Below are positions 22,254 to 51,879 of a DNA stretch of 64,000 nucleotides, piece after piece. The stretch lies in assembly GCA_947561395.2 (NCBI GenBank), contig OX387187.1, positions 21,061,829 to 21,125,828 on the forward strand, written 5' to 3'. The stretch is from Buxus sempervirens. Taxonomy: Eukaryota; Streptophyta; Magnoliopsida; Buxales; Buxaceae. Positions within the stretch are counted from its first letter, which is position 1. The number at the start of each line of letters is the position of its first letter. A model generated the notes under the pieces. The model was not told where the DNA came from and searched no databases. It worked only from the letters and a program-made list of their open reading frames with translations. Made by a program: the position numbers and the translations under genes.

Positions 22254-22850
22254 TCAACCGTGATTTATACAAAGTTTACAAACGGAATCGAATAGGAGTT
22301 TCGCTGCTATTGGGTGATAGACTCCATCTGGGGAAATTAGTACTGCTCCGATTCCCTTTCCATTGATGTTGACTGCCCCGTCAAAGAACATTCGCCATCC
22401 GGTTTCTTCTGCCTCTTCCGTCGATCCGGTGCACATTACAACTTCATCTGGGAAACTAGTGAGGAGTGGCTGGTAGCTTGGTATGGGGTGCTCCGCCAAG
22501 TGGTCCACTATTGCTTGTCCTTTTATCGCCTTTTTTGTCGTGTGAACAATGTCATACTCAGATAAAAGGACTTGCCACTTGGCTACTCTTCCAGTAGAGA
22601 TGGGCTTCTCGAAAATATACTTCAGTGGATCCAAACTTGAGATCAATAGGATTGTGTGGCTAAGTAAATAGTGCCGAAGCTTCTGGGTTACCCAGACCAA
22701 GGAGCAACATGTCTTTCTCCCCGTTTCATCATGTTGCCCCAACACACATCCTACTGCTATCTCTGAGACTGTCAGGTACATGATCAAGGGCCACCCTGGT
22801 ACCGGAGGGACCAAAGTCGGTGTGCTCATCAAATATGCCTTGATCTTGTC
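22254..22850 (-). pseudogene. Tat/Ogre-type Ty3 pol fragment (RNase H region)
   Basis: The minus frame starting DKIKAYLMSTPTLVPPVPG continues through CVLGQHDETGRK, TQKLRHYLLSHT, PLKYIFEKP, GRVAKWQVLLSEYDI and IKGQAIVDHLAEHP, then into a second RNase-H-like part (WRMFFDGAVN..GKGIGAVL). A dual RNase H is typical of Tat/Ogre elements. About 25 residues usually present after DETGRK are missing without a frame change. The 5' side of this pol is cut at 22850 by the composite insertion. The next upstream codon (F of FDKIK) reappears at 38713-38717. Confidence 0.85.
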
Positions 22851-23204
22851 TGTAACATCCCAGACCCATACCCAGCAATATATTGTCTGCTTTGGGCCTA
22901 CGGGCCCTCACGGATTTGTTTTCAAGGATAACACGAGAAAACCTCCCAGGGGTCACCCATCCTAACAGTGCTTCCACCCGAGCACGCTTAACTTTAGGGT
23001 TCCCAGGGGATTTAGTCCCATGTTGCTCCTTAAAAGGCCTCTTGCTAATTTAGGGGTCTTAAGACTACTGATAGCATCCCCGAGCGTTGTGGGATCCCAA
23101 CCATATGCACATCCTCGCCTGATAGCTTGCCACTGTGGTAGTTCGCCCAAGTCTCTCACCCCACCCACATCACAGCCTCCCACTCAGACATCCAGGATGT
23201 CACA
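22851..23204 (-). mobile_element. Cassandra-like LTR with 5S-rRNA-derived segment, copy 1
   Basis: On minus it runs tgtgacatcctgg...ctgggatgttaca, 354 bp. Positions 22941-22992 hold the reverse complement of the 3' half of plant 5S rRNA: A-box-like gttaagcgtgct, then aggatgggtgacc and cctgggag, the box C region. The LTR is preceded on minus by a purine tract (ggagggga, 23206-23215), so it is a 3' LTR. It resembles the copy at 26820 at roughly 93 percent by eye. Cassandra TRIMs are known to carry 5S sequence in the LTR. Confidence 0.85.
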
Positions 23205-23285
23205 TACTCCCCTCCATGGGACAACGTGTCCTCGCGTTGGGCCGAACCCCCACACTTTCTGGTCAGGGCAGTCTCTGATACCATT
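23205..23285 (-). mobile_element. TRIM internal domain: PBS, 60-nt spacer, polypurine tract
   Basis: On minus it starts aatggtatcagagac just after the LTR end ...gggggttaca. This is a primer-binding site for initiator tRNA-Met (TGGTATCAGAG). About 60 nt without an ORF follow, then ggaggggagta before the Cassandra LTR. An internal domain of about 80 bp is typical of TRIM elements. The LTR upstream of this PBS is the Tekay one, not Cassandra. Confidence 0.8.
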
Positions 23286-23527
23286 TGTAACCCCCCGGAT
23301 CCGGGTTACGTAACGGAACCGTAACTCGTACCCAAGGGTTAGATAACAAAACCGCAGGATCTATATCAAAGTGTAAGAAAACATGACATTTCATTTATTA
23401 TCACCAACACTATATCAGAGTTCGCTAAAATATCCCAATCACCAAACCACAATGGATTGAAAGAATTACAATTCAAAAGTTACTCACTATCACAAATGGA
23501 AATAACAACTAAGATGTATCTCAACAG

Positions 23528-23610
23528 TCACTCGACAAAATAATCCTCTCCCTTATACTCGGGGTAATCTGCGTCTGGCTCAACCCCACTTATATCGTCC
23601 TCACCAGGAT
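23528..23610 (-). other. Conserved LTR exon with GED...DYF peptide (L1' copy)
   Basis: Behind the acceptor ttgttttgttttcag| the frame reads PGEDDISGVEPDADY then PEYKGEDYFVE and TGA. It differs by two residues from the L1 copy at 38393. See the matching entries at 40995, 43501 and 49227. Confidence 0.55.
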
Positions 23611-23727
23611 CTGAAAACAAAACAAATCAAAACGGAATGAGATACGAATATCCCAGCAAGTAGCACATGCATGCACAAAACATTTATATTAGTTCTAAAA
23701 CATGCTTCAATAATAACACATGCATTC

Positions 23728-25860
23728 TGTAGACACCTGATTTTTGCACCCCTAAAATGAAGAAAAATGAAAAGTCAAACCCTGAGGGGGTCAAAAAATT
23801 GACTTTTTGATTCAAGTAAATTTGGCCATCAAACTTCATCTCATTGAAAAGAGCATTTCAACACGGTTCTAACGCAACTGAGTTTGTTGGAATCGGAGTT
23901 CGGATGAGAAAGTTATGAACCGGTCAAACTTTTGGGGAGCGAAAAGTTGACTTTTTGCTCGACCCCAATTCAGCTGCCCAAATTGATCCCAATGAATAGG
24001 TGACTCCGAGCTGATTCCAACGACACTAAGTTTGCTAAAATCGGACACTGGACGAAGAAGTTATGGGCAGTTGAAGTTTCAGAAAAACTACCCATGTGGC
24101 AAAAGGGCAGCAGAAAATAGAATAAACCAATAAAATAAATAAAATAAATGTATTTGTTAATATATTAAATATTTTAATAATATTTTAAATAAAATAATCT
24201 CGTTTTTTAATAAAATAATCGAAAAAATCGAATAAAATCTTTATTTTAAGCCAAATTGAATAATGGTTTGAAATCCAGCGAATTTAAAACGTGCTCGCCC
24301 GTATTTGAAATGCGGGCAGGGCGTGCCCGTACTTCAAATACGGGCACACCTTCTGGAAGAGACATGCGTCGTTGTACGGCAAAACACGCGTCCCGTACGG
24401 CTGATTCGGCGAGATTTGAAAATGTGCATTTTTCGTCCGCATTTGAAATATGGGCAAGGCATGCTCGCATTTTATTTACGGGCAAGGCATGCCCGCATTT
24501 CAAATACGGGCACGACTTTTTTGCATATAAATAGAGAGGCCAGCCCTCCATTCGAACACGCTGGCTCCCAAGCCTCTCCCCCTCTTCTTCCTTGCCTTTT
24601 TGCTCGTCCAACCTCTGCCCAACTTCTGCCAAAATCCCACTAGCCTATAAAAATCCCCATTTTGCCCTTAGACCTTGCCCAATCCCTTTCTCTTTCAATC
24701 CTTTCAGCCTCACAGTAGTCAACCCCTTTTCAAGCCCAAATTGGAGAATTCACTAGGGCGCGGAAGCGTTGCCAAAATCTACCCACTATCCCCACCTTTT
24801 ATCTCTCTCAACCCGAAGCAAGGGAACCCTCTCTTCAAAACCAGTTCGGAAAACCAACGGGAGTGCGGAAGCGCTGCCAGAATTTTCGGAGATCCACAAC
24901 ACACAAAAACTAACAGGTAGTGATACTGTAAGTATTCTAATCATTTCTTTAATTATTTTTCAGTCTCTTATATTACTCCTAACTTGTTTATTACATTTTG
25001 TGTGTCACAAAAGACCCCATGAAAATGGATGTCTCTATATGGAAGAGAAGGAGGGTAGTTTTACAATAAAGGCAAACTAACATGGTTAATTAACTGGTTT
25101 TATTAACAAGTTCAAGAGGGGTTTGTCCTCTTTAGCTCATACCATGTAATCCTATCCCATCCCTTTTTTCCTTTCTCATTTTAAACAACAGGAAGGTGAC
25201 TTAGCAAAAATGGAGAAAAATGGAAATTCGTTCCATTACTAAACACCAAAGGAAAAGAAGGAGATTTGACGACCAATCAAGACATTTGAACCACAGAAGT
25301 GCTGAGAATCCCAACAGAAGTCGCCAGAGCTCCTAGAAGACCAACCAAGTTGATCCCAAGCAAAATTGGCACAAAACAGCAAAATTGGGCAGAAACCGCA
25401 TACTCAGGGCGGTCAAGGCATGACCGTAGTTAATATGCGGTCTTAGCATGACCGCAGATGCACTACGGTCACGGTCAGACCGTAGAGTAAATGCGGTCAT
25501 CTCATAAAAATGATTAAAAATTAACTTTTTCGACCTGAATGAGCTTGAACCAACCCAAGTTGGTTTAACCCGACTCAATTTGGTTATTTGGGCTATTTTC
25601 AGCCCATTGAAAGAGAGTGGATCCAGATGGGCCCACAAAGACCTCCCTGGGCCCACTTAAGTGGCCCACCTTTGATCGGCCCAAACCAGGCCCGTTTTCA
25701 ACCAACGGGCCCAAGGCCACCTGATCCCTGGCTAATGGGCCAAATCCAAGCCCGCAAGCCCTAATATGTGTAAATAATTTAATAAACCAAAAGGGTTACC
25801 TAATAATCCTACTGGGCCCAAGCCCAACCTTGGCAACCCATGGGTCTTCCAACGGGACCC
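23728..25860 (+). mobile_element. Ogre-like LTR O2, 3'-truncated
   Basis: Starts tgtagacacctgatttttgcacccc and is collinear with O3 (35415) through ggtcttccaacgggaccca. There it stops against L1' sequence (tattcgggagaaccc). Its 3' end and about 215 bp of the host LTR are missing compared with L1 (38046-38262). It contains a TATA box (24536-24543, TATAAATA, then GAGAGGCCA) and hairpin words around 24295-24515 and 25395-25500. Confidence 0.75.
24536..24543 (+). promoter_or_regulatory. TATA box of Ogre-like LTR O2
   Basis: TATAAATAGAGAGGCCA is conserved exactly in the O3 copy (36205-36212). It follows the palindromic word array in both. Confidence 0.7.
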
Positions 25861-26819
25861 ATATTCGGGAGAACCCATCCAGTACAGTGATGAGTTGGCA
25901 TGTACTAATCCAGTCACAGTCCGAGTACACGATAAAATGAGGGATAGCTACAGCCAGCCGAGTACACAATCAAGCCTCACCAAGTACACGGTGGAAACGC
26001 GTGCGTGAACAACTCATTACGACTAGCAAAGAAAACAATCTATTCCACTACCTAGCTCTTAACTTGACAAATGTGGATCCATACCGAGCTATGCCATCTA
26101 GACCCGAGCTAAAGCCAAAAACAGAAATCTCATTAATATCAACTTGTTCCAAACCCAAAACATGCCATCTCGAGCACACGGCCATCTCTGAGTACACAAA
26201 GAAAACACCATCCCAAATACATGGGCATCCCCGAGTACACGGAGGTAAAGTAACCATCAAGCCATCGCAAATCACAAGAACATCCTCCAAGTGTATAAAA
26301 GTTCCCAAAAATCAGATTTGTCCATAACAAATTAGTTTAACAGATCCTTTCCAAAATAGTGCTTAAAATCCTCTTTTATAGTCAAAATTGGGTAAGACTG
26401 TCAAAACTCGGTTAAACCGGCAAATCTGCATACAGATATCAAAATTCAATAATATTGATAAATTCAGACTTGAACACTTGTTTTATACTTGAACAGAAAA
26501 TTTCTATAAGTATTTCTATTACTTCCTCTCTTTAACATAACCCAAGACATCATATATTAACTCATATAACTCCAACTTATGTAATCCTAAGCTTTCTACT
26601 TTTGGTTCACTTAAGATATAATCTTATTCTCTAATGTGCTTCCAATAACTCATATGTAACCTGAATTTTAAGCAAACTTTATAATGATCTTTACCTTGGA
26701 GTTTTAATGCCCAAAATTTACTTATACCAAAATCTGAAATACACTAATCTTATTTGACTTATTTCCCCTTTTCTACACTCATTTAAGTTTCCATTATTTC
26801 TCTCTTATACATTTATATA

Positions 26820-27171
26820 TGTGACATCCTAACTGTCTGAGTGGGTGGCTATGATGTGGGCGGGGTGAGAGACCTGGGTGAGCTACCACAGTGGCGAGCT
26901 ACCAGGTGAGGATGTGCATATGGTTGGGATTCCACAACGCTCGAGGATGCTATAAGTAGTCTTAAGACCCCCAAATTAGCAAGAGGCCTTTTAAGAGCAA
27001 CATGGGACTAAATCCCCTGGGAACCCTAAAGTTAAGCGTGCTCGGGTGGGAGCACTGCTAGGATGGGTGACCCCTGGGAAGTTTTCACGTGTTATCCTTG
27101 AAAACAAATCCGTGAGGCCCGTGGGCCCAGAGCGAACAAAATATTGCTGGGTATGGGTCTGGCATGTTACA
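26820..27171 (+). mobile_element. Cassandra-like LTR with 5S-derived segment, copy 2, used as 5' LTR of gag-pol
   Basis: 352 bp, tgtgacatcctaa...ctggcatgttaca. The 5S-like block is at 27031-27083: gttaagcgtgctcggg, then aggatgggtgacccctggg. It is followed immediately by a tRNA-Met PBS and then the chromovirus gag. Its U3 start abuts the broken end of the inverted Tekay LTR. A 5S-type internal promoter here would read toward gag. Confidence 0.85.
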
Positions 27172-27186
27172 AATGGTATTAGAGAT
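27172..27186 (+). promoter_or_regulatory. Primer-binding site of the gag-pol element
   Basis: aatggtattagagata directly follows the LTR end gttaca. It matches the tRNA-iMet PBS TGGTATCAGAG with one C-to-T change, consistent with methylation decay. Confidence 0.8.
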
Positions 27187-27322
27187 ATATCAGAGAACTT
27201 GATAAGAGATATGAATGAACACCTATAGGATGGCCTTGGGGTTTGAGAGTACGTTAGATAGTACCCTAGGAATTGCTAGGGAGAGATCCTATCTGACTCG
27301 GTTTTGTTGTATTTTAGTTGAC

Positions 27323-28606
27323 ATGGCTGGCAGAGGACGACTTGTTGCTCGAGCCCGCACCCTGGCAGCTAGGCCAGTGGAGGACCATCATGAGGAGGTA
27401 CAGGAGCAGCCTCCATTCTTTGCTGAGGACCAGCAGATACCACGTCCTCAGGCACCACCAGAGGCCCCACCTCAGAGAGGTGATGATATTTGGGCAGCTG
27501 TTGGGACTCTTACTCGGCTCCTGTCTATGGAGCGAGAGGAGCGGATGAGCCAGACCGGCAACGGGAATGGTCATCGGAATGGGGAAGGGCAAGGAGATAA
27601 TCATAGGGGGCAACAGCAGCAGCACATGAGAGAGTTGGAGCAGTTCCGAAAGATGGGACCTCCTACCTTCACAAGAGTACCCGATCCATTAGAGGCTGAG
27701 AGATGGATCCAGAGGATTGAGAGGATCCTTGACATTATGTAGTGCTCAGAGGGGAGTAGGGTGAGGATGGCCACTTTCATGATGGAGGGCGAGGCATATC
27801 ATTGGTGGCAGAGTGTGCTATGTAGAAAGGCTCCAGGGACTCAAATGACATGGGTACAGTTCAGGGAGCTGTTCTACAGCCGATATTTCTCATCAGAGTT
27901 CCGCCTGTCTAAGGCGAGGGAGTTTATGCAGATATCTCAGGGGACTTCATCTGTGGCCCAGTACGAGGCCAGATTTGAGGAGCTGTCTCGTTTTGCTCCA
28001 CATATAGTAGCAGTGGAGGAGCAGCGCATTGAGCACTTCGAGGAGGGGCTGAGGCCTGAGATCAAGGACAAGGTATCAGTATTTTTGTGTACTCATTTTG
28101 AGGAGTTAGTCAGGAGGGCTGAGAGGGCTGAGAGACTTATCCGTACCAGCAGAGGTGATGCCAGCAGGGCACGGTTACCTCCCAGATAGTTTTATGAGCA
28201 GTGGGGTGTCTTTGGAAGGGATAAGAGGCCGAGAATTGAAGGTGCAGGACTGAGACAGATGGATGGTAGATGTGCCAGCTTTGGGAGATCACATATTCCC
28301 GGTCCTTGTATTGCACTGGTCGGTGCATGTTTTTGGTGTGGACAGCAGGGACACCAGATAGCTGACTGCACTTATTCGTCCACATATCAGTCTTTACAAC
28401 CCGAGTATAGATCAGCACCACGGACTGAGACACAGGGACTAGCAGCTCCAGTTCCATATAGAATGCAGCCTCAGGGCACTCGAGTTGACAGATCTGTTCC
28501 GGCAGCTCCTACAGATCGGAGGCAGCAGGGTAGAGCTCCGCGAGGTCGAGGTGCGCCACCTAAGATTGGTCAGAGGCAGCCAACACCAGTGACACAGGGG
28601 CAGTAA
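27323..28606 (+). pseudogene. Chromovirus (Tekay-type) gag, broken
   Basis: Starts MAGRGRLVARAR at 27323. Recognisable gag blocks follow: DIWAAVGTLTRLL, REFFYSRYF-like FRELFYSRYF, SVAQYEARFEELSRFAPH, HFEEGLRPEIKD. The CCHC knuckle CFWCGQQGHQIADC is at 28328-28369. In-frame stops lie at 27740 (TAG), 28187 (TAG) and 28604 (TAA), each one base from a glutamine codon. Gag would form the virus-like particle. The copy cannot make a full product. Confidence 0.88.
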
Positions 28607-30400
28607 ACCAGAGTTTATGTAGTAGGTGCTACTGAGGAGGAGGAGGAGCCTGAGCCTGATGCACCTCATTTGGTTGGAGGTATTATTTTTATTTCTGGTC
28701 GATCTGCAATTTGTTTATTTGATTCTGGAGCGTCTATTTCTTTTATTACCCCGCATTGTGCATGTCGTATTGGATTGACACCGGATACATTAGAAACCAC
28801 TTTGACTGTGTACACACCTTTGGGGGAGACCTCTAGATTACAAACTGTATACCGAGATTGTATGATCAGATTAGGATCATTGGAGTCACCCGGTAGTCTG
28901 ATGGCATTAGATTTTGGAGAGTTTGATGTCATTTTGGGAATTGACTGATTGTTTCGGCACCATGTGAGCATTGATTGCTTCAGGGGTACCATTACAGTGA
29001 GTTCTCCAGGGCAGCCTGTTTATTGTTTCAAGTGTGAGGGTTTGTCTAGCAGAGTGGAATTGGTGGCTTCTGTGTTGACAGAGGAACCGAAGGGAGACAC
29101 TCCTAGCTTGACTGATGTGCCTATTGTTTGTGAGTATGCGGATGTTTTTCTGGATGACTTGCCAGGATTACCCCCACCTAGGAGGTTGATTTTAGGATTC
29201 GACTCCTACCTGGCACGACACTAGTATCTAGACCTCCATATAGGATGTCTCAACCGGAATACACAGAACTGAAGAAGCAAGTTGATGAGTTGCTTGAGAA
29301 GGGGTATATTAGACCGAGTGTTTCACCTTGGGGTGCACCGGTTCTCTTCGTACAGAAGAAGGATGGGTCTATGAGGATGTGTATAGACTACCGTCGTCTG
29401 AATCAAGTGACAATCAAGAATAAGTACCCACTACCCCAGATAGATGATTATTTGATCAGTTGAGGGGAGCATCATGGTTCTCGAAGATTGATTTGAAATC
29501 GGGATACCGCCAGTTATGTGTCGCACCAGAGGATATAGAGAAGACAGCATTCCGTACAAGATATGGACATTATGAGTTTTTAGTCATGCCATTTGGGCTG
29601 ACTAATGCCCCGGCTGTTTTAATGGATCTCATGAACCGAGTGTTTCATCCCTACCTTGATAGTTTTGTAGTGGTGTTCATAGATGATATTCTGATTTATT
29701 CCCGGAGTAGAGATGAGCATGTCCAGCATCTCAAGACAGTGTTGCAAACATTGAGAGATCATCACTTGTATGCAAAATTCAGCAAGTGTCAGTTCTGGTT
29801 GCAAAAGATCTCATTTCTAGGACATGTTATTTCCGGGGAGGGTGTTGAGGTTGATCCATCTAAGGTAAAGCAGTGACTGATTGGCCGAGACCCACTACAG
29901 TTACTGAAGTGCGTAGTTTCTTGGGTATGGCCGGATATTATAGGAGATTCATTGAGAATTTTTCCAGATTAGCAGCTCCTATGTCAAATCTCACTAAGAA
30001 AGCAGTGAAATTCACATGGGATGACAGTTGTGAACAGAGTTTCCAAGAATTGAAGCGTCGATTGACTGAGGCTCCTGTTCTAATTATATCTTCAGTGAAC
30101 GAGAATTTCTTTGTTTATTGTGATGCCACTCGAGTTGGATTGGGCTGTGTGTTGATGCAGCAAAGGAGAGTGGTAGCTTATGCATCGCGATTGTTGCGTA
30201 CTCATGAGAAGAACTATCCCACCCATGACTTAGAGTTGGTTGTTATAGTGTTCGCACTTAAGATATGGCGGCATTACTTATATGGGGTTCAGTTTGAGAT
30301 ATTCTCTAATCATAAGAGTCTGAGATACATATTCTCACAGAGAGATCTTAACATGAGGCAGAGGAGGTGGATGGATCTTCTGAAGGACTATGATTTTACA
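28607..30400 (+). pseudogene. Chromovirus pol: protease, reverse transcriptase, RNase H (broken)
   Basis: Protease active site LFDSGASISFI at about 28711-28743; TGA at 28946 replaces a tryptophan codon. [18 protein letters not shown] (about 29356-29403), [12 protein letters not shown], and the catalytic FIDDILIYS near 29676. Frameshifts lie near 29200, near 29455, and at the 29874 TGA. RNase H follows from about 30080 (VYCDATRVGLGCVLMQ) to VVADALSRR near 30450. Order PR-RT-RH is that of Ty3 elements. Confidence 0.88.
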
Positions 30401-32760
30401 CTTCAGTACCATCCGGGCAAGGCAAATGTAGTTGCTGATGCCTTGAGTCGTAGAGGAGCATCTGAGGATCAGATAGCCACGTTGTCTTCTTTTATGACCA
30501 GTCAGTGCAGTTTGGTAGATACTGTTAGAGATTGGCCATGTGAGTTTGTATCTGAGGGTGTCGATCGGATTTTAGCCCGAGTACATGTAGAGCCGGATTT
30601 GATCCAGCGCATTCGGGAGAGGCAGTTGTCAGATACAGATCTGAAGCATACCAAAGAGTTGGTAGAGAAAGGTGATGAAACTGCCAGAGAGTTTGAATTC
30701 AGAGATGGGTTATTGAGGTTCAAGGGTAGGATTTGTATACCTGATGATGTAGAGATCCGCAGAGTCATACTGGATGAGAGCCATAAGTCCAGATATGCAG
30801 TTCATCCCGGTAGTACCAAGATGTATAGAAATCTGAGGAATGTGTATTGGTGGTCAGGGATGAAGAATGATGTAGCTGAGTATGTGTCTAGATGCTAGGT
30901 ATGTCAGCAAGTAAAAGCAGAACACCGTAGACCTCCAGGGTTGTTACACTCATTGCCTGTTCCTGAGTGGAAGTGGGAACACATCACCATGGACTTTGTT
31001 AATGGGTTGCCGGGTACACAGAAGAAGTAGGATGATATATGGGTGATCGTAGATTGGTTGATGAAATCAGCCCATTCCTTGCCTTATCGTACCACACATC
31101 TATGGTAGAGATGTACATGAGGGAGATAGTTCGGTTTCATGGAGTTCCAGTATCGATTGTATCTGACCGAGATGCCCGGTTTACTTCACAGTTTTGGCAG
31201 AGTTTTCAAGAGGCCTTGGGCACTAAATTGTGTTTCAGCACAAGTTATCACCCACAGACGGATGGTCAGTCAGAGCGGACCATACAGATATTGGAGGACA
31301 TGTTACGCTGTTGTGTATTGGATTAGGGTGGTAGTTGGAGCAACCACTTACACTTGGTGGAGTTCGCTTATAATAACAGCTACCAGGCCAGTATACAGAT
31401 GGCACCATTTGAGGTAGGGGTGGCAATCGGTCGAATACGGATCGGATATATGTATATTCGTATTTGAATCCGAATTTTTTCGGATCTTAGATTTCAGATC
31501 CGTATTCGAACCACGGATCTAAATCCTATATTTGAATTCGGAAATTTCGGTTTCGGATCGGATTCAAATATATATCCCACTCATTACCAACTCTACTTAG
31601 AGAGGGATTTAAATGAGAAATGGGTTTGAACTTCAAATTTGAAGCACCATGCAACAGTGGATATTGAGCGACTGGCAAAAAAATCATACCCCAGAACTTA
31701 GAACGACCTGTCTGTTCTGGACAATGGAATTTCAGAGCAAAATAGGGGGTTTTGGAATTGGTTCTTTAAGTGGGTTTGCAGGTACCAATCGCCGGAGGGT
31801 GGCAGTGACAAAGATGAGAGAAAGTTTAGATTTAGGGCAAATCGTTTTTTAAAGGTTTTTGGTTTTAGTTATGATTGTTCAACTGTAGTTTATAAATGGT
31901 CTACAATCTAACCATGTCTGCTCTGGGTTTATGTATATGATATATATGATTTCGGTCGGATCCTATTCGGATCGGATACATGTATATCCGTATTTGAATC
32001 CGAATTTTTTCGGATCTTAGATTTCAGATCCGTATTTGAACCACGGATCTTAGATTTCAGATTGGATTCGCCAATTTCGAATCGGATTCGGATCGAATTC
32101 GGATATATATCCGACCCATTGCCAGCCCTAATTTGAGGCGTTGTATGGTCGTACATGTAGATCACCTGTTTGCTGGGAGGAGGTTGGTGAAAGGCAGTAT
32201 CTAGGCCCTCAGATCGTGCAAGATAGTGTTGAGAAAGTGAACTTGATCAGGCAGCGGTTATTGACTGCTCAGAGCCGTCAGAAGAGCTATGCGGATGATA
32301 GGCGGCGTGACTTGGAATTTGAGGTCGGGGATCAAGTGTTTCTTAAGATATCACCTTCGAAGGGTATTATGAGATTTGGGAAAAAGGGCAAGTTATCTCC
32401 GAGATTCATTGGGCCATTTGAGATAGTAAAGAAAGTGAATCCAGTTGCATATCGTCTAGCTTTGCCTACGCAGTTGGGTAGAGGACATGATGTATTTCAC
32501 ATCTCTATGCTGAGATGATATATATCAGACCCGAGTCATGTGATTGATATTGAGCCTTTGGTGATTCGGGAGGACTTATCTAATGAGGAGGTTCTGATCT
32601 AGATCCTGGATCGACGTGATCAAATCCTGCGTACCAAAGTGATACCTTTGGTGAAGGTGCTATGATAGAATCACTCGACCGAGGAGGCTACATGGGAGAG
32701 AGAGGATGAGATGAAGCGGACGTACCTGGATTTATTTATAGCGTTATGAGGTAAATTTCG
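30401..32760 (+). pseudogene. Chromovirus integrase and chromodomain (broken, interrupted by a MITE)
   Basis: Zinc-binding HHCC region around HKSRYAVHPG...VSRC (30780-30895). TAG follows at 30896, then [12 protein letters not shown] and the core with [10 protein letters not shown] (first D) and VSDRDARFT (second D, near 31165), [11 protein letters not shown]. Further stops at 31028 and 31324. A hAT MITE (31415-32130) splits APFE|ALYGR. After it, RTCRSPVCW, GPFEIV and VFHISMLR, then a decayed C-terminus (EEATWEREDEMKRTYLDLF) typical of a chromodomain of the Tekay/Del group. Confidence 0.85.
31415..32130. mobile_element. Non-autonomous hAT MITE, 716 bp, in integrase
   Basis: Termini taggggtggcaatcg and (read on minus) tagggctggcaatgg. 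Exact 8-bp TSD atttgagg (31407-31414 and 32131-32138). It contains repeated blocks of cggatcggata/tttgaatccgaatttttt near both ends (31440-31520 and 31955-32060). No transposase. Removal joins the integrase frame. Confidence 0.93.
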
Positions 32761-32777
32761 AGGACGAAATTTTTTGT

Positions 32778-32789
32778 AGGAGGGGAGGA
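32778..32789 (+). promoter_or_regulatory. Polypurine tract of the Tekay element
   Basis: aggaggggagga lies directly before the 3' LTR start tgtaaaatccc. It primes plus-strand DNA synthesis in this element class. Confidence 0.85.
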
Positions 32790-35414
32790 TGTAAAATCCC
32801 TAATTTTCTGGAAAGTTAAAATTTTATATTGTAGTGATTAAATTAATGTTAATTAGTGAATTTTGCAGAGAAAGGAGATTATTGATTTAAATTAGAAATG
32901 TTGCTTGAGCCGGTCGGGCTATTTAAGTAATAAGGTATGAGAAATTTCCAGAATTTTAATTAGTTGATTTTTGCTCGGATCAGGTGGCAAAGATAAGTGA
33001 TACTAACTCTAATTGAGCTGTTGATATAGGGAATTTGGTAGTGTGGCATGACAGTGGATCATGATTTAAGTGGTTGATGGGTGGCAAGTATAAAAATGAG
33101 CAAATCTCAGTTAGCTGTTTCGTTTGGCTGAGTTTTTGATTGAGCATAATTGGAAATCTCAGAGAGAAGAGAGATCCGGAAGCTAGGGTTGAGGAGGTGA
33201 AAATCTGGTTGCTGAGGTGATCAAAGACTTCTTGGAAGGCCGTCTGATTTCTGTTCAAGAAGAGAGAAGTTTCACCTGCAGCAACAACTGAATCTCGTTT
33301 GAGTACTGCAATCTGAGCAGCTGTGATTTCAAGTCAGGTACGTTTAGCTAAATTAGCTATAAGATCATGGAAACCTTCTCCAATCTAATGAAGAAATTCA
33401 GATCTAACTAGATTTGATTTGAACTTTGATCTCTGCAGAAACCTGGATGTAAGTTCATTTCGGGTGACAAATTGTAGAGAATTTGGGAGCAATTAGGAGG
33501 TTCTGATTTGTGGTTAGCTCCAAACAGGTAAGTAGCACAAATCCTAATTGATTTGAATGTTTAAAACTAAGATTTGATTCAATTATTATATGTACAGCCG
33601 AACCTCTGTTTTTGAATTGTTATTGGCGCATAAGTATGAAGAACCTGATTTATGGTTAATTAAGAATTAAATGTATGGAAATAGATTGTTAAGTTGAGCA
33701 ATAAAGTGCTGGAAATGGACTAGTAAGACACAATAAATCAGATCATATCAGAATCCGAAAAATCTGTAGATAGTTGCTACCAAAGTTTTGTTGGAGAATA
33801 GTTGAACGACTAATTTTATGCATGTGTTGTTAGTAGATTAATTAAACTCAATGCAGGTTAGAAAGGCCATTGGAAGAGTCTAGATTATCCTAGGAAAGTT
33901 TTGAATGCAATGTAGCAATTCAATTCTGGTGTTCGGTTTCATTATCAGCATTCGAATCAAGAAAACATGGTCTAACGCTGAATATTGCTGGGGATCGCTT
34001 ACCTCCTTTAGAGGTCAGCGCCCAGCAGGTTTTTTTGGTCTTTAAAGAGTTAGTTTCAGTCCTATGTTAGAGTTTCTTCTAGGAATTAGTTATGAGAGTA
34101 AATGAGGAGTAAAATGGACTTAATTTGGAGTAGGCAAGAGGTGCGGGAAAACATGGAATGCATGACCAAGTTGCTGAAATTGTTTGAATAAGGAGATAGG
34201 CAGCCAAGCTAGGTGTATATGTATTGGTAAATTAAATTGATTAAACAAGGTATATTATAGAGGGTTAAAATTGTGATGAAGGGAGTGTGAAAGCAAAACA
34301 GTAACTCAGTTTTAGACCACTTGCAACTACTGTCATTGAATCTGTGGAACCTTAGAGAGGGCGCCCAGGATTGCTGAGGATCGCCCACCTCTCCAGAGGT
34401 TGGCGCCCAGCTTCGGTTTCATCCTATATTCCGACTAAATTGTGCATAGTGTTAAATTATACTTTATGGTTTTCTTGGGGAATTAAATGGTTGTAAGCTA
34501 AGGGTTATACCAAGTTGTTAGGTTCTGAAAAAACCAAAAGGTCTTATTAGGAACAAGTGGAGGGTTCTTATAAAAACTAAGGTCTGTCCAGCTTTTATAC
34601 ATTGTGGTATAAGATATTGCACATGCTGGGTTGTAAAGTTCAATTGGGTAAATTACCTAAATGATAACTGGGGAAGTATAAATGTATAGGAGAGAAATAA
34701 TGGAAACTTAAATGAGTGTAGAAAAGGGGAAATAAGTCAAATAAGATTAGTGTATTTCAGATTTTGGTATAAGTAAATTTTGGGCATTAAAACTCCAAGG
34801 TAAAGATCATTATAAAGTTTGCTTAAAATTTAGGTTACATATGAGTTATTGGAAACACATTAGAGAATAAGATTATATCTTAAGTGAACCAAAAGTAGAA
34901 AGCTTAGGATTACATAAGTTGGAGTTATATGAGTTACTATATGATGTCTTGGGTTATGTTAAAGAGAGGAAGTAATAGAAATACTTATAGAAATTTTCTG
35001 TTCAAGTATAAAACAAGTGTTCAAGTCTGAATTTATCAATATTATTGAATTTTGATATCTGTATGCAGATTTGCCGGTTTAACCGAGTTTTGACAGTCTT
35101 ACCCAATTTTGACTATAAAAGAGGATTTTAAGCACTATTTTGGAAAGGATCTGTTAAACTAATTTGTTATGGACAAATCTGATTTTTGGGAACTTTTATA
35201 CACTTGGAGGATGTTCTTGTGATTTGCGATGGCTTGATGGTTACTTTACCTCCGTGTACTCGGGGATGCCCATGTATTTGGGATGGTGTTTTCTTTGTGT
35301 ACTCAGAGATGGCCGTGTGCTCGAGATGGCATGTTTTGGGTTTGGAACAAGTTGATATTAATGAGATTTCTGTTTTTGGCTTTAGCTCGGGTCTAGATGG
35401 CATAGCTCGGTATG

Positions 35415-37820
35415 TGTTAGCACCTGATTTTTGCACCCCCAAAATAAAGAAAAATGAAAGGTCAAACTAAAAGTCAAACCCTGAGGAGGTCGAAAATTGA
35501 CTTTTTGATTCAAGAGAATTTGGCCATCAAACTTCATATCATTGAAAAGAATATGTCGACACGATTCCAACGCAACTGAATTTGCTGGAATCGGAGTCCG
35601 GATGAGAAAGATATGAGCTGGTCAAACTTTTGGGGGGCGAAAAGTTGACTTTTTGCTCGACCCTAATTCAACTGCCAAAATTGATCCCAATGGATAAGTG
35701 GTTCCGAGCTGATTCCAACGACACTAAGTTTGTTGAAATCGGACACCGGATAAAGAAGTTATGAGCAGTTGAAGTTTCAGAAAAACTGCCCATGTGGCAA
35801 AAACGCAGCAAAAATGGACTAAACCAATAAAACAAATAAGATAAATGTGTTTAACAATATTTTAATAAAGAGAATCTCGTTTTCTAATAAAATAATCGGA
35901 AAAATCGGATAAAAATCCTGCAATAAACCAAATTGAATAATGGTTTGAAGTCCACACATTTTTAAAACGTGCGGGACCGTATTTACATTACGGGCAGGAC
36001 ATGCCCGTATTTTAAATACGGGCACGCTTCTAGAAGGAAGACACGCGTCGCCGTACGGCGGAACACGCGTCCCGTACGGCCGAATCTGCGATAATTGCAA
36101 ATATTCGTTTTTCGCCCGTATTTGAATTACGGGCAAGGCACGCCCGTACTTGAAGTACGGGCAAGGCACGCCCGTAGTTCAAATACGGGCACGGGATTTT
36201 TGCCTATAAATAGAGAGGCCACCCCCCTTCATTTGGACAAGCCCTCTTCCCTTTGGCCTACCCCCTCTCCCTCCTGGTGTACTCCACGACCCCATGCTGC
36301 CCAACCACCACCACCCTTAGCCCAAACTTATTTTATTCCTAAAATACCCTCACCTTGCATGAACCATGTCCTAATTCCCTCTTTCATCTTGTAAGTATAA
36401 ACAACCCACTAAACCTCTGCTGAAATCCACCTAGAATTCCTCGGAGGACGCGGAAGCGCTGCCCAATTCACCGGAGAATTCATCATTAACTCAAAACCAC
36501 ATTGTAAGTATGTTGGATTTTATAAAAATCTTCATTTCTTTTTTGCTTCTAAGTTTCTTTTAAATACCTTCTTATGTTACTAACTTGATTGTTATTTTTG
36601 AATATCATGAGGATATGGTATTATGAAATGGATCATTGCAAGGAAGAAAGAAAAGAAGTGTCTAAAGAACACTTCAATAAATTTAAGTAAATAACTTTTT
36701 TTTTAGTTCCTAATGTGACAAGACTGAACCCTTCTTGAAGACAAATGGGTTCCCTATGATTTCCCATTTCCCTTCTTCACAAGATGATCATGGACAATCC
36801 AGAAGGCTGTCAGCACTCATATTGAAAAAAGAAGAAAGAAGAATGAAGGCCTTTTAGGCCAAATGAAGCCAATGAAGTATCCGGAAGAGTCTGGAAACCC
36901 AGTTGAAGCTGCAGAAACACTAAAGGAAGCCGCCGGAATGATCTCAGAAAGAATCGGCAGCAAACATGCAAATTGAGTTGTGCCCGTAAACTCAGGCCGG
37001 TCCAACCTGGACCGTGTTTCATTCACGGACATGGGGGACCGGAATCCATTCACGGTCAGGTTGGACCGTAGAGCAAACACGGGCAAGTGTAAAAATAATG
37101 TAAAAGTGGTAATTCCTTGGTTCGGTTGGACCGGATCCGGTCTAAGCCGGCTTGAACCATCCCCTTAAATCGTTTGGGCTACCTTAAAGCCCATTTTTGA
37201 CTTTGGGCCCATACGGGCCCACCAAGACCCCTTTGGCCCACTTTTGGGGCCCACTTTTTGACTGGCCCATAACAGGCCTGTTTTCAATAAACAGGTCCAA
37301 GGCCACTTGACTCTTGGCTAATGGGCCCGTTCCAAGCCCACTAAGCCCAAATAAGTTGTAAATAAATAAAATAACCAAATGGGTTACCCAATAACCCAAC
37401 TGGGCCCAAGGCCCAACCATGGCAACCCACGGGTCTTCCAACGGGACCCGGGTCCGACTCACTTCACTTAAATAAATAAAAAGATAAAATCAAATAAAAA
37501 AGGGACCCACACCTTCAAAAGGGCCCCGCCAGACCTAACAAGTCAGCATGCTGGTCTAGGAAGGGTGAAAATGACTCAAAAACCAGGGAGACCCGAGGGA
37601 CCCGTCAAACCGACGGGGCGGACCGGGGTGTCTTTAGGACTTCCCCGGATCGTAACCGAGGACTTAGCTAGAACTCTAATAAGCCGCAGACCAGACTTAG
37701 ACCCGGATAGGGCAAAACCGTGTCTGCCTGCACTCTCAGGCAGTGGCGACTCCGAATGTCCCGAGGCACGCACCGAAGGTGCGCCCGGTGTGCGATCTAG
37801 GCCAGGTTTAGGTGCGCACA
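35415..37820 (+). mobile_element. Ogre-like solo LTR O3, 2.4 kb, TSD gtatg
   Basis: Starts tgttagcacctgatttttgc, ends ggtttaggtgcgcaca. Exact 5-bp TSD gtatg (35410-35414 and 37821-37825). The uninterrupted site is visible in L1' at about 26083 (agctcggtatggatccac on the other strand). It contains TATAAATA at 36205-36212, palindromic words (35965-36195, 36975-37085), and ggcagtggcgactcc at 37739-37753. Confidence 0.92.
36205..36212 (+). promoter_or_regulatory. TATA box of Ogre-like LTR O3
   Basis: TATAAATAGAGAGGCCA, identical to the O2 copy and just downstream of the cccgta...tacggg palindromes. Confidence 0.7.
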
Positions 37821-38392
37821 GTATGGATCCACATTTGTCAAGTTAAGAGCTAGGTAGTGGAATAGATTGTTTTTTTTGCTAGTCGTAATGAGTTGTTTAC
37901 GCATGCGTTTCCACCGTGTACTCGGTGAGACTTGATTGTGTACTCAGCTGGCTACGGCTATCCCTCATTTTATCGTGTACTCGGACTGTGACTGGATTAG
38001 TACACGCCAACTCATCACTGTACTGGATGGGTTCTCCCGCAATAAGACGATGATCGTGTACTCGGCTTCGCACCTAAGCCGGGAGGTGGCATAGTGAACT
38101 TCGGCATTACCTAGTTAAGGGCAATCTTATTTCATGAGTCCACCGTGGACTTGTTTTTATGATTTCACTTATGAATCGCTGTTATGCATTGATTGTTGAG
38201 ATTGCTCTTTATCAGTATATATGTTGTATTTGGATTATTCGGATTACTCTTAAAGGTTGGTTCTCGTTACAAATGCATGTGTTATTATTGAAGCATGTTT
38301 TAGAACTAATATAAATGTTTTGTGCATGCATGTGCTACTTGCTGGGATATTCATATTTCATTCCGTTTTGATTTGTTTTCAGATCCTGGTGA

Positions 38393-38465
38393 GGACGATA
38401 TACGTGGGGTTGAGCCAGACGCAGATTACCTCGAGTATAGGGGAGAGGATTATTTTGTCGAGTGA
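38393..38465 (+). other. Conserved LTR exon with GED...DYF peptide (L1)
   Basis: The acceptor gatttgttttcag| (AG 38391-38392) is followed by a frame in phase 1: PGEDDIRGVEPDADY, LEYRGEDYFVE, TGA. Upstream lies the shared text catgcatgtgctacttgctgggatattcatat. Short, acidic, no family recognised. It may be the end of an LTR-encoded ORF or conserved non-coding RNA. Confidence 0.55.
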
Positions 38466-38928
38466 CTGTTGAGATACATCTTAGTTGTTATTTCCATTTG
38501 AGATAGTGAGTAACTTTTGAATTGTAATTCTTTCGATTCATTGTGGTATGGTGATTGGGATATTTTAGCGAACTCTGATATTGTGTTGGTGATAATAAAT
38601 GAAATGTCATGTTTTCTTACACTATGATATAGATACTGCGGTTTTGTTATCTAACCCTCGGGTACGAGTTACAGTTCCATTACGTAACCCGGATCCGGGG
38701 CGTTACATTGTCGAACGTGTAAAATCCCAGATTTTATTAATTAATTAAATAATTAATATTAATAAATAAGCTGATTAAGTTATTAATATGCAGTGGTTAA
38801 GGATTTGGTTCAACCCGGAGAAGTCCAAGGTGAACCGGAGGAACTTGGGGAACCAATCTAAGGTGAGTTCACGATTTTAGGCTAAATATAATTTTAATAT
38901 AAGAATTTTGGTTATTTCTATAGAAAGT

Positions 38929-41393: not shown

Positions 41394-41617
41394 TGATCTA
41401 TCTCTAGTCTGGGTTTGTGTATGTATACTAATTTCTATTCATATCCTATTCGGGTCGGATATAGGCAAATTTGAATTTAAATCCAAATTTGGTCGGATCC
41501 GAAATTCCATATCTGTATTCGAACCATAGATCTATATCTCATATCCATATTCGACATTTACGGATCGGATTTGGGCTGGATTCAGATACATATTCGACCC
41601 ATTGCCAGTCCTAGTTA
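41394..41617. mobile_element. 3' part of a hAT MITE related to 31415-32130
   Basis: tagtctgggtttgtgtatgtatac... followed by cggatcggat/gaatttaaatcc words and the end cccattgccagtccta match the right third of the MITE at 31915-32130. The left part is replaced by LTR L2. Confidence 0.7.
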
Positions 41618-50299: not shown

Positions 50300-51351
50300 T
50301 AAGATTCTCTAACTGACAACCTCTGATACATAGCTGGGTGAGGACATTCAAAAATCTTATGCCTCGGATATCGACATCTGAAACAAGCTCCTGGAGGCAC
50401 ATAACATGGACTTGGCAAATGAAATCGATCACATTCACTACAATTTCCATTAATTTTCCTATCTTCACTTCCTTGTTGATCCTTCCAATCACTACGCTGT
50501 CTTTTCTTTCAACTTATATGCTTCCTCATCTCATATCCTAACCTCGAGAAATTTTCTGTTCCAATTGGATAGGGTTTCATCAAATCTAATTTGTTCCTCG
50601 AATTTATATCCCTTTCTCCTCTAGTAGCTCTTCACACTATATCGTTGTACTCTGTGCAGACAAAAACCGTCAACATACTCCTAATATCCGGCCTCAGTCC
50701 CTTCTCAAAATGCTGAGTCTTCCTCCTTTCATCTTGCACCATATGAGGCGCAAACCTCAACAACTCAGAAAAGTGTGCCTCATATTGAGCCACTGTCTGC
50801 TCTCCATGAGATATATCCATGAACTCCCGCTCCTTCTGTAAGTGAATCTCATCAGAGAAGTACTGCCTATAGAATATGTCGGCAAAACTATCTCATGACA
50901 TGCAAACTACCTGGGGATCCTGCCTCTTCACAGCTCTCCACCAATGAGCTACCTCCCCTTCGAATAGAAATGAAGCTAGTCTCACCCTCCTGTCATTGGG
51001 GCAATCCATCGCCTCAAATATCCACTCAACCTCATAAGCCATCTCTCGGCCTCCATCAGATCTGGCAATCCACTAAAGATCGGAGGATCCATCTTGCGGA
51101 ACTGTTCTAGGTCTCATGCTGTCTGTAGCCCTTCAGGGTGATTTGGTGCATCCCTGTGTCCATTTCCCCCTCCGTTCTCGTTTCCATTCTGACTCAGCCT
51201 CTCCTCCCTCTCCTTGGTGAGAAGATTTGCCAAAGTACCCACCATAGCCCATGTATCCACCTTGTGGTAGGGCATCCTGCTGTTGCTCCTCGGCCTCATC
51301 TGGCCTCTATACAGGAGTTTCGACTCGTGCTTGTCGTCTTCTACTAGCCAT
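50300..51351 (-). pseudogene. E5 gag (chromovirus), broken
   Basis: On minus from ATG 51351 (MASRRRQARVETP, then a TAG). Recognised: TWAMVGTLANLLTKEREERL, aligned with the gag of the composite element (WAAVGTLTRLLSMEREERM); HGEQTVAQYEAHFSELLRFAPH; HFEKGLRPDIR. The CCHC knuckle CFRCRYPRHKIFEC is at 50385-50344. Several stops and frame changes. Short spacing from gag to the next element shows there is no pol. Confidence 0.82.
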
Positions 51352-51477
51352 CTATAAAATTAAGAATCTCAATCATTTGGAATTTCCTTCCTATAATAAT
51401 CACTAAGGTTTCTATCTAGCGAGAACACAATCTCATACCATCCTATGGCTTGCTACCTAGGGTTAGGATCTATTTTG

Positions 51478-51490
51478 CTCTGATACCATT
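51478..51490 (-). promoter_or_regulatory. Primer-binding site of E5
   Basis: On minus aatggtatcagagc follows the LTR end gttaca. It is an intact tRNA-iMet PBS (TGGTATCAGAGC). Confidence 0.85.
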
Positions 51491-51879
51491 TGTAACGCCC
51501 CGAACACGGGTCTATGCAAAACAAGCACCAAACCCGAACCTAAAGTGCTACTGGCCCAAAGTAACTAATTACCAGACAATTAAATTTAAATAATTCCATT
51601 GAATATCAGAGTGCAGATGTAAGACCTTGGAAAAAAAAATAAATAAAATAGTTAGTTTATTTAGTTGGGTTGGTTTAGTGAGTGTTAATGGTTTAAATGG
51701 GTAGGTTAAATTGGTTCAAGTGGTTAGGTTTAGATGAGTTGGTTCGAGTGGTTAAACCGACTCAATGGTTTAAACCAAAAGAAAAAAAGAAAACAAACCC
51801 AAAAGCCATTCACGATTTGTGCATTTGTGCATTTGGGGGTTTTTGGGGTGTTGGGTCGTCAAGGGTTTGCGGCAAAGAA

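Follow-up and report, generated by a model that had tools for sequence, protein, structure and literature searches.

The question raised by a 64,000-nucleotide stretch of the Buxus sempervirens genome (C9:21061829-21125828, hereafter the window) is how parts of two families of long terminal repeat (LTR) retrotransposons, named Cassandra and Tekay in an initial annotation, came to lie head to head in one block at 22851-38707 between the two copies of a single target-site duplication (TSD). The evidence gathered from the window and from a search of the genome (676 Mb, 247 contigs) makes it probable that the block was inserted as a single composite complementary DNA (cDNA), which was produced by the joint reverse transcription of Cassandra and Tekay templates. 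Hereafter, C denotes a Cassandra LTR, c the Cassandra internal domain, G the Tekay-type gag-pol and T the Tekay LTR, while contigs are written as C9 and the like and are named as contigs where confusion with individual Cassandra LTRs (C5, C3) might arise.

Self-comparison and reading of the sequence gave the order C3(-) c(-) T'(-) / C5(+) G(+) T(+) for 22851-38707. On the minus strand, the Cassandra LTR C3 (22851-23204), whose U5 (unique 5' region) end forms the left outer end of the composite, is adjoined by the Cassandra internal domain (23205-23285), which extends from a tRNA-Met primer-binding site (PBS, 23273-23285) to the polypurine tract (PPT) with a terminal TA at 23205-23206, and then by a truncated Tekay LTR, T' (23286-26817). 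The head-to-head joint carries TA at 26818-26819, the same two bases that stand between the Cassandra PPT and its LTR. The plus-strand half begins with a complete Cassandra LTR, C5 (26820-27171), in which a degenerate 5S-like stretch lies at 26992-27095, and the PBS region at 27172-27185 is the exchange point that links this LTR with the Tekay internal domain. The Tekay-type gag-pol (27172-32777), harboring stops, frameshifts and an insertion at about 31435-32137, is followed by the polypurine tract AGGAGGGGAGGA (32778-32789) and by a complete Tekay LTR, T (32790-38707), whose U5 end is the right outer end. The initial annotation proved accurate as to the inverted Cassandra LTRs (22851-23204 against 26820-27171, 92.6% identity), the inverted Tekay LTR parts (23286-26817 and 34677-38707, the only portion of the right LTR that T' matches), the position of both exchange points at the PBS, where GTTACAAATGGTAT is common, and the TTGTC at both outer ends (22846-22850 and 38708-38712).

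The left TTGTC lies in a minus-strand reverse transcriptase (RT)/RNase H frame, which we take to be of Tat type. The left and right flanks of the window combined read GATCTTGTC followed by GAACG, and this uninterrupted target was found exactly in 2 of 19 Tat-type relatives (L050 and L056), the other relatives differing by a few bases. Since the joined flanks equal the sequence of these two relatives, the block as a whole interrupts a single continuous target, of which exactly 5 bp are duplicated, and an empty site would read GATCTTGTCGAACG. Two independent neighboring insertions were considered and rejected, because neither half possesses a TSD of its own (ATATA before 26820, TTGTC after 38707).

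Two details of the initial annotation had to be abandoned, namely that the left Tekay LTR was complete and that 26819/26820 joined one LTR end to another. The true LTR start, TGTAAAATCCC, is located at 32790 after the PPT AGGAGGGGAGGA, the tract and the start together spanning 32778-32800, and it was confirmed in two other Tekay copies, one of which is a 3.45-kb solo LTR on C19 with AGTTT at one border and AGTTC at the other. The left LTR begins at the equivalent of 34677, which leaves 1,887 bp absent at the joint, where a truncated Tekay LTR meets the Cassandra U3 (unique 3' region) end. The right LTR includes a 2,406-bp insertion (35415-37820) with GTATG on both sides, and T' includes one of about 2.1 kb (about 23732-25861). 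A segment at the joint (26080-26819 against 34675-35414) shows 6 differences in 740 positions and holds 477 identical bases, extending about 47 past the right insertion, whereas the inverted Tekay LTRs are elsewhere 4.3% apart, which suggests conversion between the two LTRs.

The putative Cassandra label has as its basis the size of the element, its PBS and PPT, and a 5S match that is weak: the LTRs measure about 352-355 bp, the non-coding internal domain 79-81 bp, and a Met-type PBS, a PPT, TG..CA ends and a 5-bp TSD are all present. The match of the window Cassandra LTR to the Rfam family RF00001 reached 20.6 bits (E 0.075) against a gathering score of 38, a C10 Cassandra copy scored 19 bits (E 0.23), and no 5S match at the Rfam gathering score was found within 20000-42000. 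Plain C-c-C controls (L027 and L003) are flanked by the TSDs GATGC and TCAAG. The putative Tekay assignment is based on Ty3-type domains, the PBS and long LTRs. Pfam matches to Ty3-type gag, protease, RT, RNase H and integrase were obtained in that order, the integrase zinc-binding domain lying above the Pfam curated cut-off and the integrase core (24.9 bits) below it. A readable stretch at 32669-32746 is presumably chromodomain-like by its motif; Pfam returned no family, and hence no chromodomain, for the two short stop-free pieces tested. The lineage name itself is an assumption taken over from the initial annotation.

Whether the window is a singular accident could be judged from its junctions elsewhere in the genome. 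Querying with the C-PBS-G junction scored 40 of 1264 first-look candidates, and querying with T-PBS-c-C3 scored 40 of 2559; the resulting counts are lower bounds, because only part of the candidates was scored. C-PBS-G was spanned in 3 of 40, the window included, the others being C10:862979-863583 (92%) and C11:27092305-27092875 (81%). T-PBS-c was spanned in 7 of 40, again with the window, the other loci being C10:853468, C6:38091808, C6:32746203, C11:27096977, C10:6244231 and C4:26550007, where the match covers only 35 bases of T. Moreover, an exact T-PBS-c pattern gave 10 matches against none in the reversed control; four are among the six loci found by the query, one (C4:7326829) ends at a separately placed Tekay LTR end, and five were placed by the pattern itself, three of which, with ATCT, could be mutated Cassandra ends. 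The TCTGGGGYGTTACA pattern occurred at 23 places and was uninformative for C-PBS-G, since some Tekay LTRs also end in ATCTGGGG. Altogether, one or both junctions were found at six other loci examined, which involve at least five other Tekay lineages.

Several of these loci are composites with an exact TSD. C10:853319-863663 has the structure C-PBS-G-T-PBS-c-C with the TSD TGGCC, read at its ends and, for the middle 3.5 kb, from fitting spacing. At C6:38091659-38100514 the order C-G-T-c-C was read at both ends (about 6.8 kb between them unread), and the TSD is CCTTT. The head-to-head composite at C11:27090261-27097471 reads T(-)-TA-C5-G-T-c-C3 with the TSD CCACA; its G is internally deleted and its T(-) is complete. 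At C6:32746 kb (C6b, L073) and C10:6244 kb (C10b, L074), T-PBS-c-C is succeeded by one more PBS, as might result from serial plus-strand hops, and no outer TSD was established at either locus; at C10:6244 kb, another T end with a listed identity of 100% is found 6.3 kb farther along, and it too has a PBS behind it. C4:26550 kb consists of T-PBS-c-C, then AATA, then another Cassandra LTR. Chimeras of Cassandra LTRs with gag-pol beyond the window, for which the initial annotation had proposed a genome search, were thus found on C10, C11 and C6. Its suggestion that the block was inserted as one unit, and the second of its two explanations, namely joined, template-switched cDNAs, draw support from these loci, which share the junctions of the window and have exact duplications at their outer ends.

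Insertion in the head-to-head form is not peculiar to the window but makes up a class. Loci composed of Cassandra only, with U3 sides joined and U5 ends outward, carry exact TSDs at C15:6167554 (ATGAG), contig C3:40023512 (TTTTA) and C22:8874284 (CTGAG), and a direct LTR-LTR joint at C4:18093309 has the TSD GGTAA. Three of the nine loci checked gave no TSD (L031, L013 and L020); at L013 and L020 the outermost match is not an element end, and at L031 (C12:13576.7-13577.9 kb) the Cassandra LTRs stand tail to tail, U5 to U5. In four of five head-to-head composites (window, C15, contig C3 and C22, not C11), one partner or both are truncated at the joint.

The bases before the Cassandra LTR, sorted by eye with identical contexts counted once, were TA in 21 of 21 copies after a Cassandra PPT, in five of six LTR-LTR joints (window, C11, C15 and two on C4) and in 2 of 12 plain flanks, the difference between joints and plain flanks having p = 0.013. 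One locus, C1:70933921, fits the head-to-head pattern, but its upstream sequence could not be identified as a Tekay LTR and it was counted as a plain flank; the Cassandra C-c-C there (L088, C1:70933.2-70934.8 kb) has TTACATA in front of it, a sequence also seen at the joint of C11. The integrase of human immunodeficiency virus 1 is described as trimming two bases from each cDNA end (PMC1905944). Given such trimming, the retained TA suggests that an unprocessed end was joined.

The parentage of the fusions was traced through gag starts and T ends. Among 12 ordinary Tekay gag starts fetched, the 10 with a PBS match were used for gag and seven for the T tree; L083 and L087, with no PBS match, were dropped from both comparisons, and L078, L086 and L081 were left out of the T tree, as their pre-PBS sequence was not a comparable Tekay LTR end (distances 0.24-0.53). 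The C10 gag start is 1.8% from the Tekay copy L086 as against 7.6% from the window (grouping support 100), while the window gag start is nearest L076 (5.2%) with weak placement (supports below 50). The T ends of C11, C6a, C6b and C10b are 26-40% from that of the window, and the T end of C10 is 12.6% from it. The fusions therefore arose from more than one Tekay parent, and a single chimeric ancestor does not explain them. On the Cassandra side, the two LTRs of the window share five rare alleles, each below 15% among 33 other copies, and both therefore come from one Cassandra lineage.

These observations can be accommodated by the following scheme, in which co-packaging, the transfer step, the U3-side joining and the use of Tekay proteins are inferred from the structure of the loci together with what is generally known of reverse transcription in LTR elements. 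Cassandra and Tekay have the same tRNA-Met PBS, and strands would be swapped while co-packaged templates are being copied. At second-strand transfer, a Cassandra plus strand (C-PBS) may anneal to a Tekay minus strand to give C-G-T, and the reciprocal pairing, of T-PBS on the Tekay plus strand with a minus strand of Cassandra, may give T-c-C; a further hop would yield C-G-T-c-C or T-c-C-G-T. The window would then represent two single-swap products, C-G-T and T-c-C, joined U3 to U3, by end joining or by a polymerase jump at the template end, whereupon integrase would insert the joined molecule via its two free U5 ends and duplicate TTGTC. C11 would be a T joined to a double-hop product. In an equivalent path, the window would derive from a molecule like that of C11, T(-) / C5 G T c C3, through a flip of its C5-G middle between inverted T copies, and such a flip would make the two forms interconvertible. 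The window locus has, in addition, the insertions in both Tekay LTRs and the likely conversion tract between them.

Several observations weigh against this scheme. One event with one molecule of each element predicts equal divergence of the two LTR pairs, and the pairs are unequal both in the window (Cassandra 26/352, Tekay 28/657 in two segments, p = 0.04) and in C11 (Cassandra 9/355, Tekay T(-) against T 4/1951 with 196 gap columns, p = 2e-5). Several parents, faster decay of Cassandra LTRs or conversion would be needed; different Cassandra parents would explain C11, while the shared rare alleles in the window call for either unequal decay or a Cassandra lineage of greater age. In the T tree, whose supports were read from the unrooted tree, the right LTR of the window groups with the C11 copy at 18.49 Mb to the exclusion of the left LTR (support 81), all three together having a support of 93, and T' and T may accordingly not be sister LTRs. 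In addition, the window joint lies away from the Tekay LTR end, the joint at C22:8874284 falls inside both LTRs, contig C3:40023512 has CG in place of TA, and the T of the TA at the C11 joint also fits the Tekay side.

The strongest rival, which we nevertheless regard as unlikely, is a local rearrangement: a Tekay element with the TSD TTGTC received a minus-orientation Cassandra in its 5' LTR, recombination between TGTAAAATCCC and TGTAACATCCC deleted 1.9 kb, and inversion between PBS sequences flipped 23286-27171. The Tekay LTR start TGTAAAATCCC is indeed near-identical to the Cassandra outer end TGTAACATCCC, these 11-mers stand at the required places and the inverted PBS sequences are identical over 14 bp, so that the missing 1,887 bp and TTGTC would be accounted for without a joined cDNA. 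The price is three ordered events for a single locus, whereas both chimeric junctions recur elsewhere with other Tekay parents, C11 has an untruncated T(-) under one outer TSD, and the TA at the joint is left unexplained. Furthermore, this history predicts a Tekay divergence at least as great as that of Cassandra, of which the reverse is seen, weakly (p = 0.04), and it needs a sister relation between T' and T, a grouping disfavored by the T tree (support 81 against); if they are not sisters, two Tekay copies were involved, which hopping allows and nesting does not. Local nesting followed by deletion and PBS inversion was hence ranked lower once the other loci were found. Of the inversion in a nested pair put forward by the initial annotation, what stands is that for the window alone a TGTAAAATCCC/TGTAACATCCC-mediated deletion could have left TTGTC; as a general account it is weakened, since each of several loci would need an inversion of its own and composites of the C11 type are not what it predicts.

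A less probable rival dispenses with co-packaging altogether, a one-LTR Tekay circle recombining homologously into an integrated Cassandra at the PBS to give C-G-T-c-C, with head-to-head forms produced by later rearrangement. A circle opened at the PBS would yield exactly PBS-G-T, and the TSD and the similar Cassandra LTRs (1.1% apart in the C6 composite, 1.4% in the C10 composite) would be kept. Unexplained by it are the Cassandra U5 and Tekay U5 outer ends under one TSD in the window and C11, and the direct LTR-LTR joints with extra bases at two C4 loci. False assembly joins among high-copy repeats, which are the usual places of misjoins, are highly improbable, as they would neither yield exact 5-bp outer duplications at independent loci nor reproduce the target seen in Tat-type relatives.

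Beside the composite, some further features of the window may be recorded. A second LTR-like sequence, TGTAAAATCCCAG, starts at 38718 right after GAACG in the same Tat-type target, and its other end was not found within the window; likewise, no Tat continuation to the right of 38718 was seen among minus-strand frames of at least 60 residues, read by eye, or in a search for GAACG. The LTR-like insertions at 35415-37820 and about 23732-25861 are related (80-82% alike in two stretches) and independent, lying in opposite orientation relative to their host LTRs, and the left one occupies a place where about 223 bp are missing. The pol insertion at 31435-32137 has ends about 83% alike (31435-31602 and 31965-32137) and is related to 41400-41616. 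A second Tekay-like gag with its own PBS and LTR end was read by eye on the minus strand at 50302-51496.

The composite invites comparison with systems described in open-licence papers, to which the literature search was directed; parts of the Cassandra-Tekay story may already be in print. Template switching can make complex LTR insertions (Sabot and Schulman 2007, PMC1950507), and in the Triticeae, rice and maize cases given there a unit of several LTRs, put down to abnormal template switching during reverse transcription, likewise lies within a single TSD. Those cases involve a single family, in which the outer LTRs are similar and a third LTR lies internally, whereas the window combines two families exchanged at the PBS, head to head, with U5 ends outward. 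The single duplication is found here, as TTGTC outside the window block, with ATATA before 26820, and as CCACA at C11, yet the outer LTRs are Cassandra and Tekay rather than similar; the window block thus behaves like a template-switched composite insertion, though one of another variant. Arrays in which Cassandra and other terminal-repeat retrotransposons in miniature stand in tandem (PMC7215508, PMC4717578) are also LTR-internal-LTR polymers for which template switching is one proposed cause, but they consist of tandem Cassandra units, while here the gag-pol of another family lies between Cassandra LTRs and inverted forms occur; the available text of PMC7215508 contains no occurrence of chimer, nested, head-to-head or inversion. 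In rice, Tekay is over-represented among tandem LTR structures, and perfect 5-nt TSDs flank 10 of 28 of these (PMC11899658), which are read as single insertions as here, although no Cassandra partner or head-to-head form is noted in the part available. Recombinant Onsen elements of Arabidopsis (PMC5668417) are similarly attributed to two co-packaged RNAs, but recombination there is within one family and the LTR recombinants mostly fit a first template switch in R, in contrast with the exchange between families at the PBS.

Cassandra has been reported from monocots, dicots and ferns (PMC10853983), and one paper sees no indication of an autonomous family responsible for it (PMC10886601), while another calls its autonomous partners unknown (PMC7215508). 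The recurrent chimeras make Tekay a testable candidate for the helper of Cassandra. A broader proposal, for which we see the balance as even, is that Tekay-type chromoviruses are Cassandra helpers, within whose particles the PBS common to both elements would let plus strands move from one co-packaged minus strand to another and thereby generate Cassandra arrays, C-G-T-c-C and Tekay loaded with Cassandra, while two products may join U3 to U3 and insert via two U5 ends. If true, the window would hold an LTR-element insertion with inverted ends, and chimeras formed at the strand-transfer point would be physical traces of Cassandra and Tekay having been copied together. Such chimeras would also illustrate how a non-coding element can acquire gag-pol between its own LTRs, and how composites bearing two U5 ends can enter the genome.

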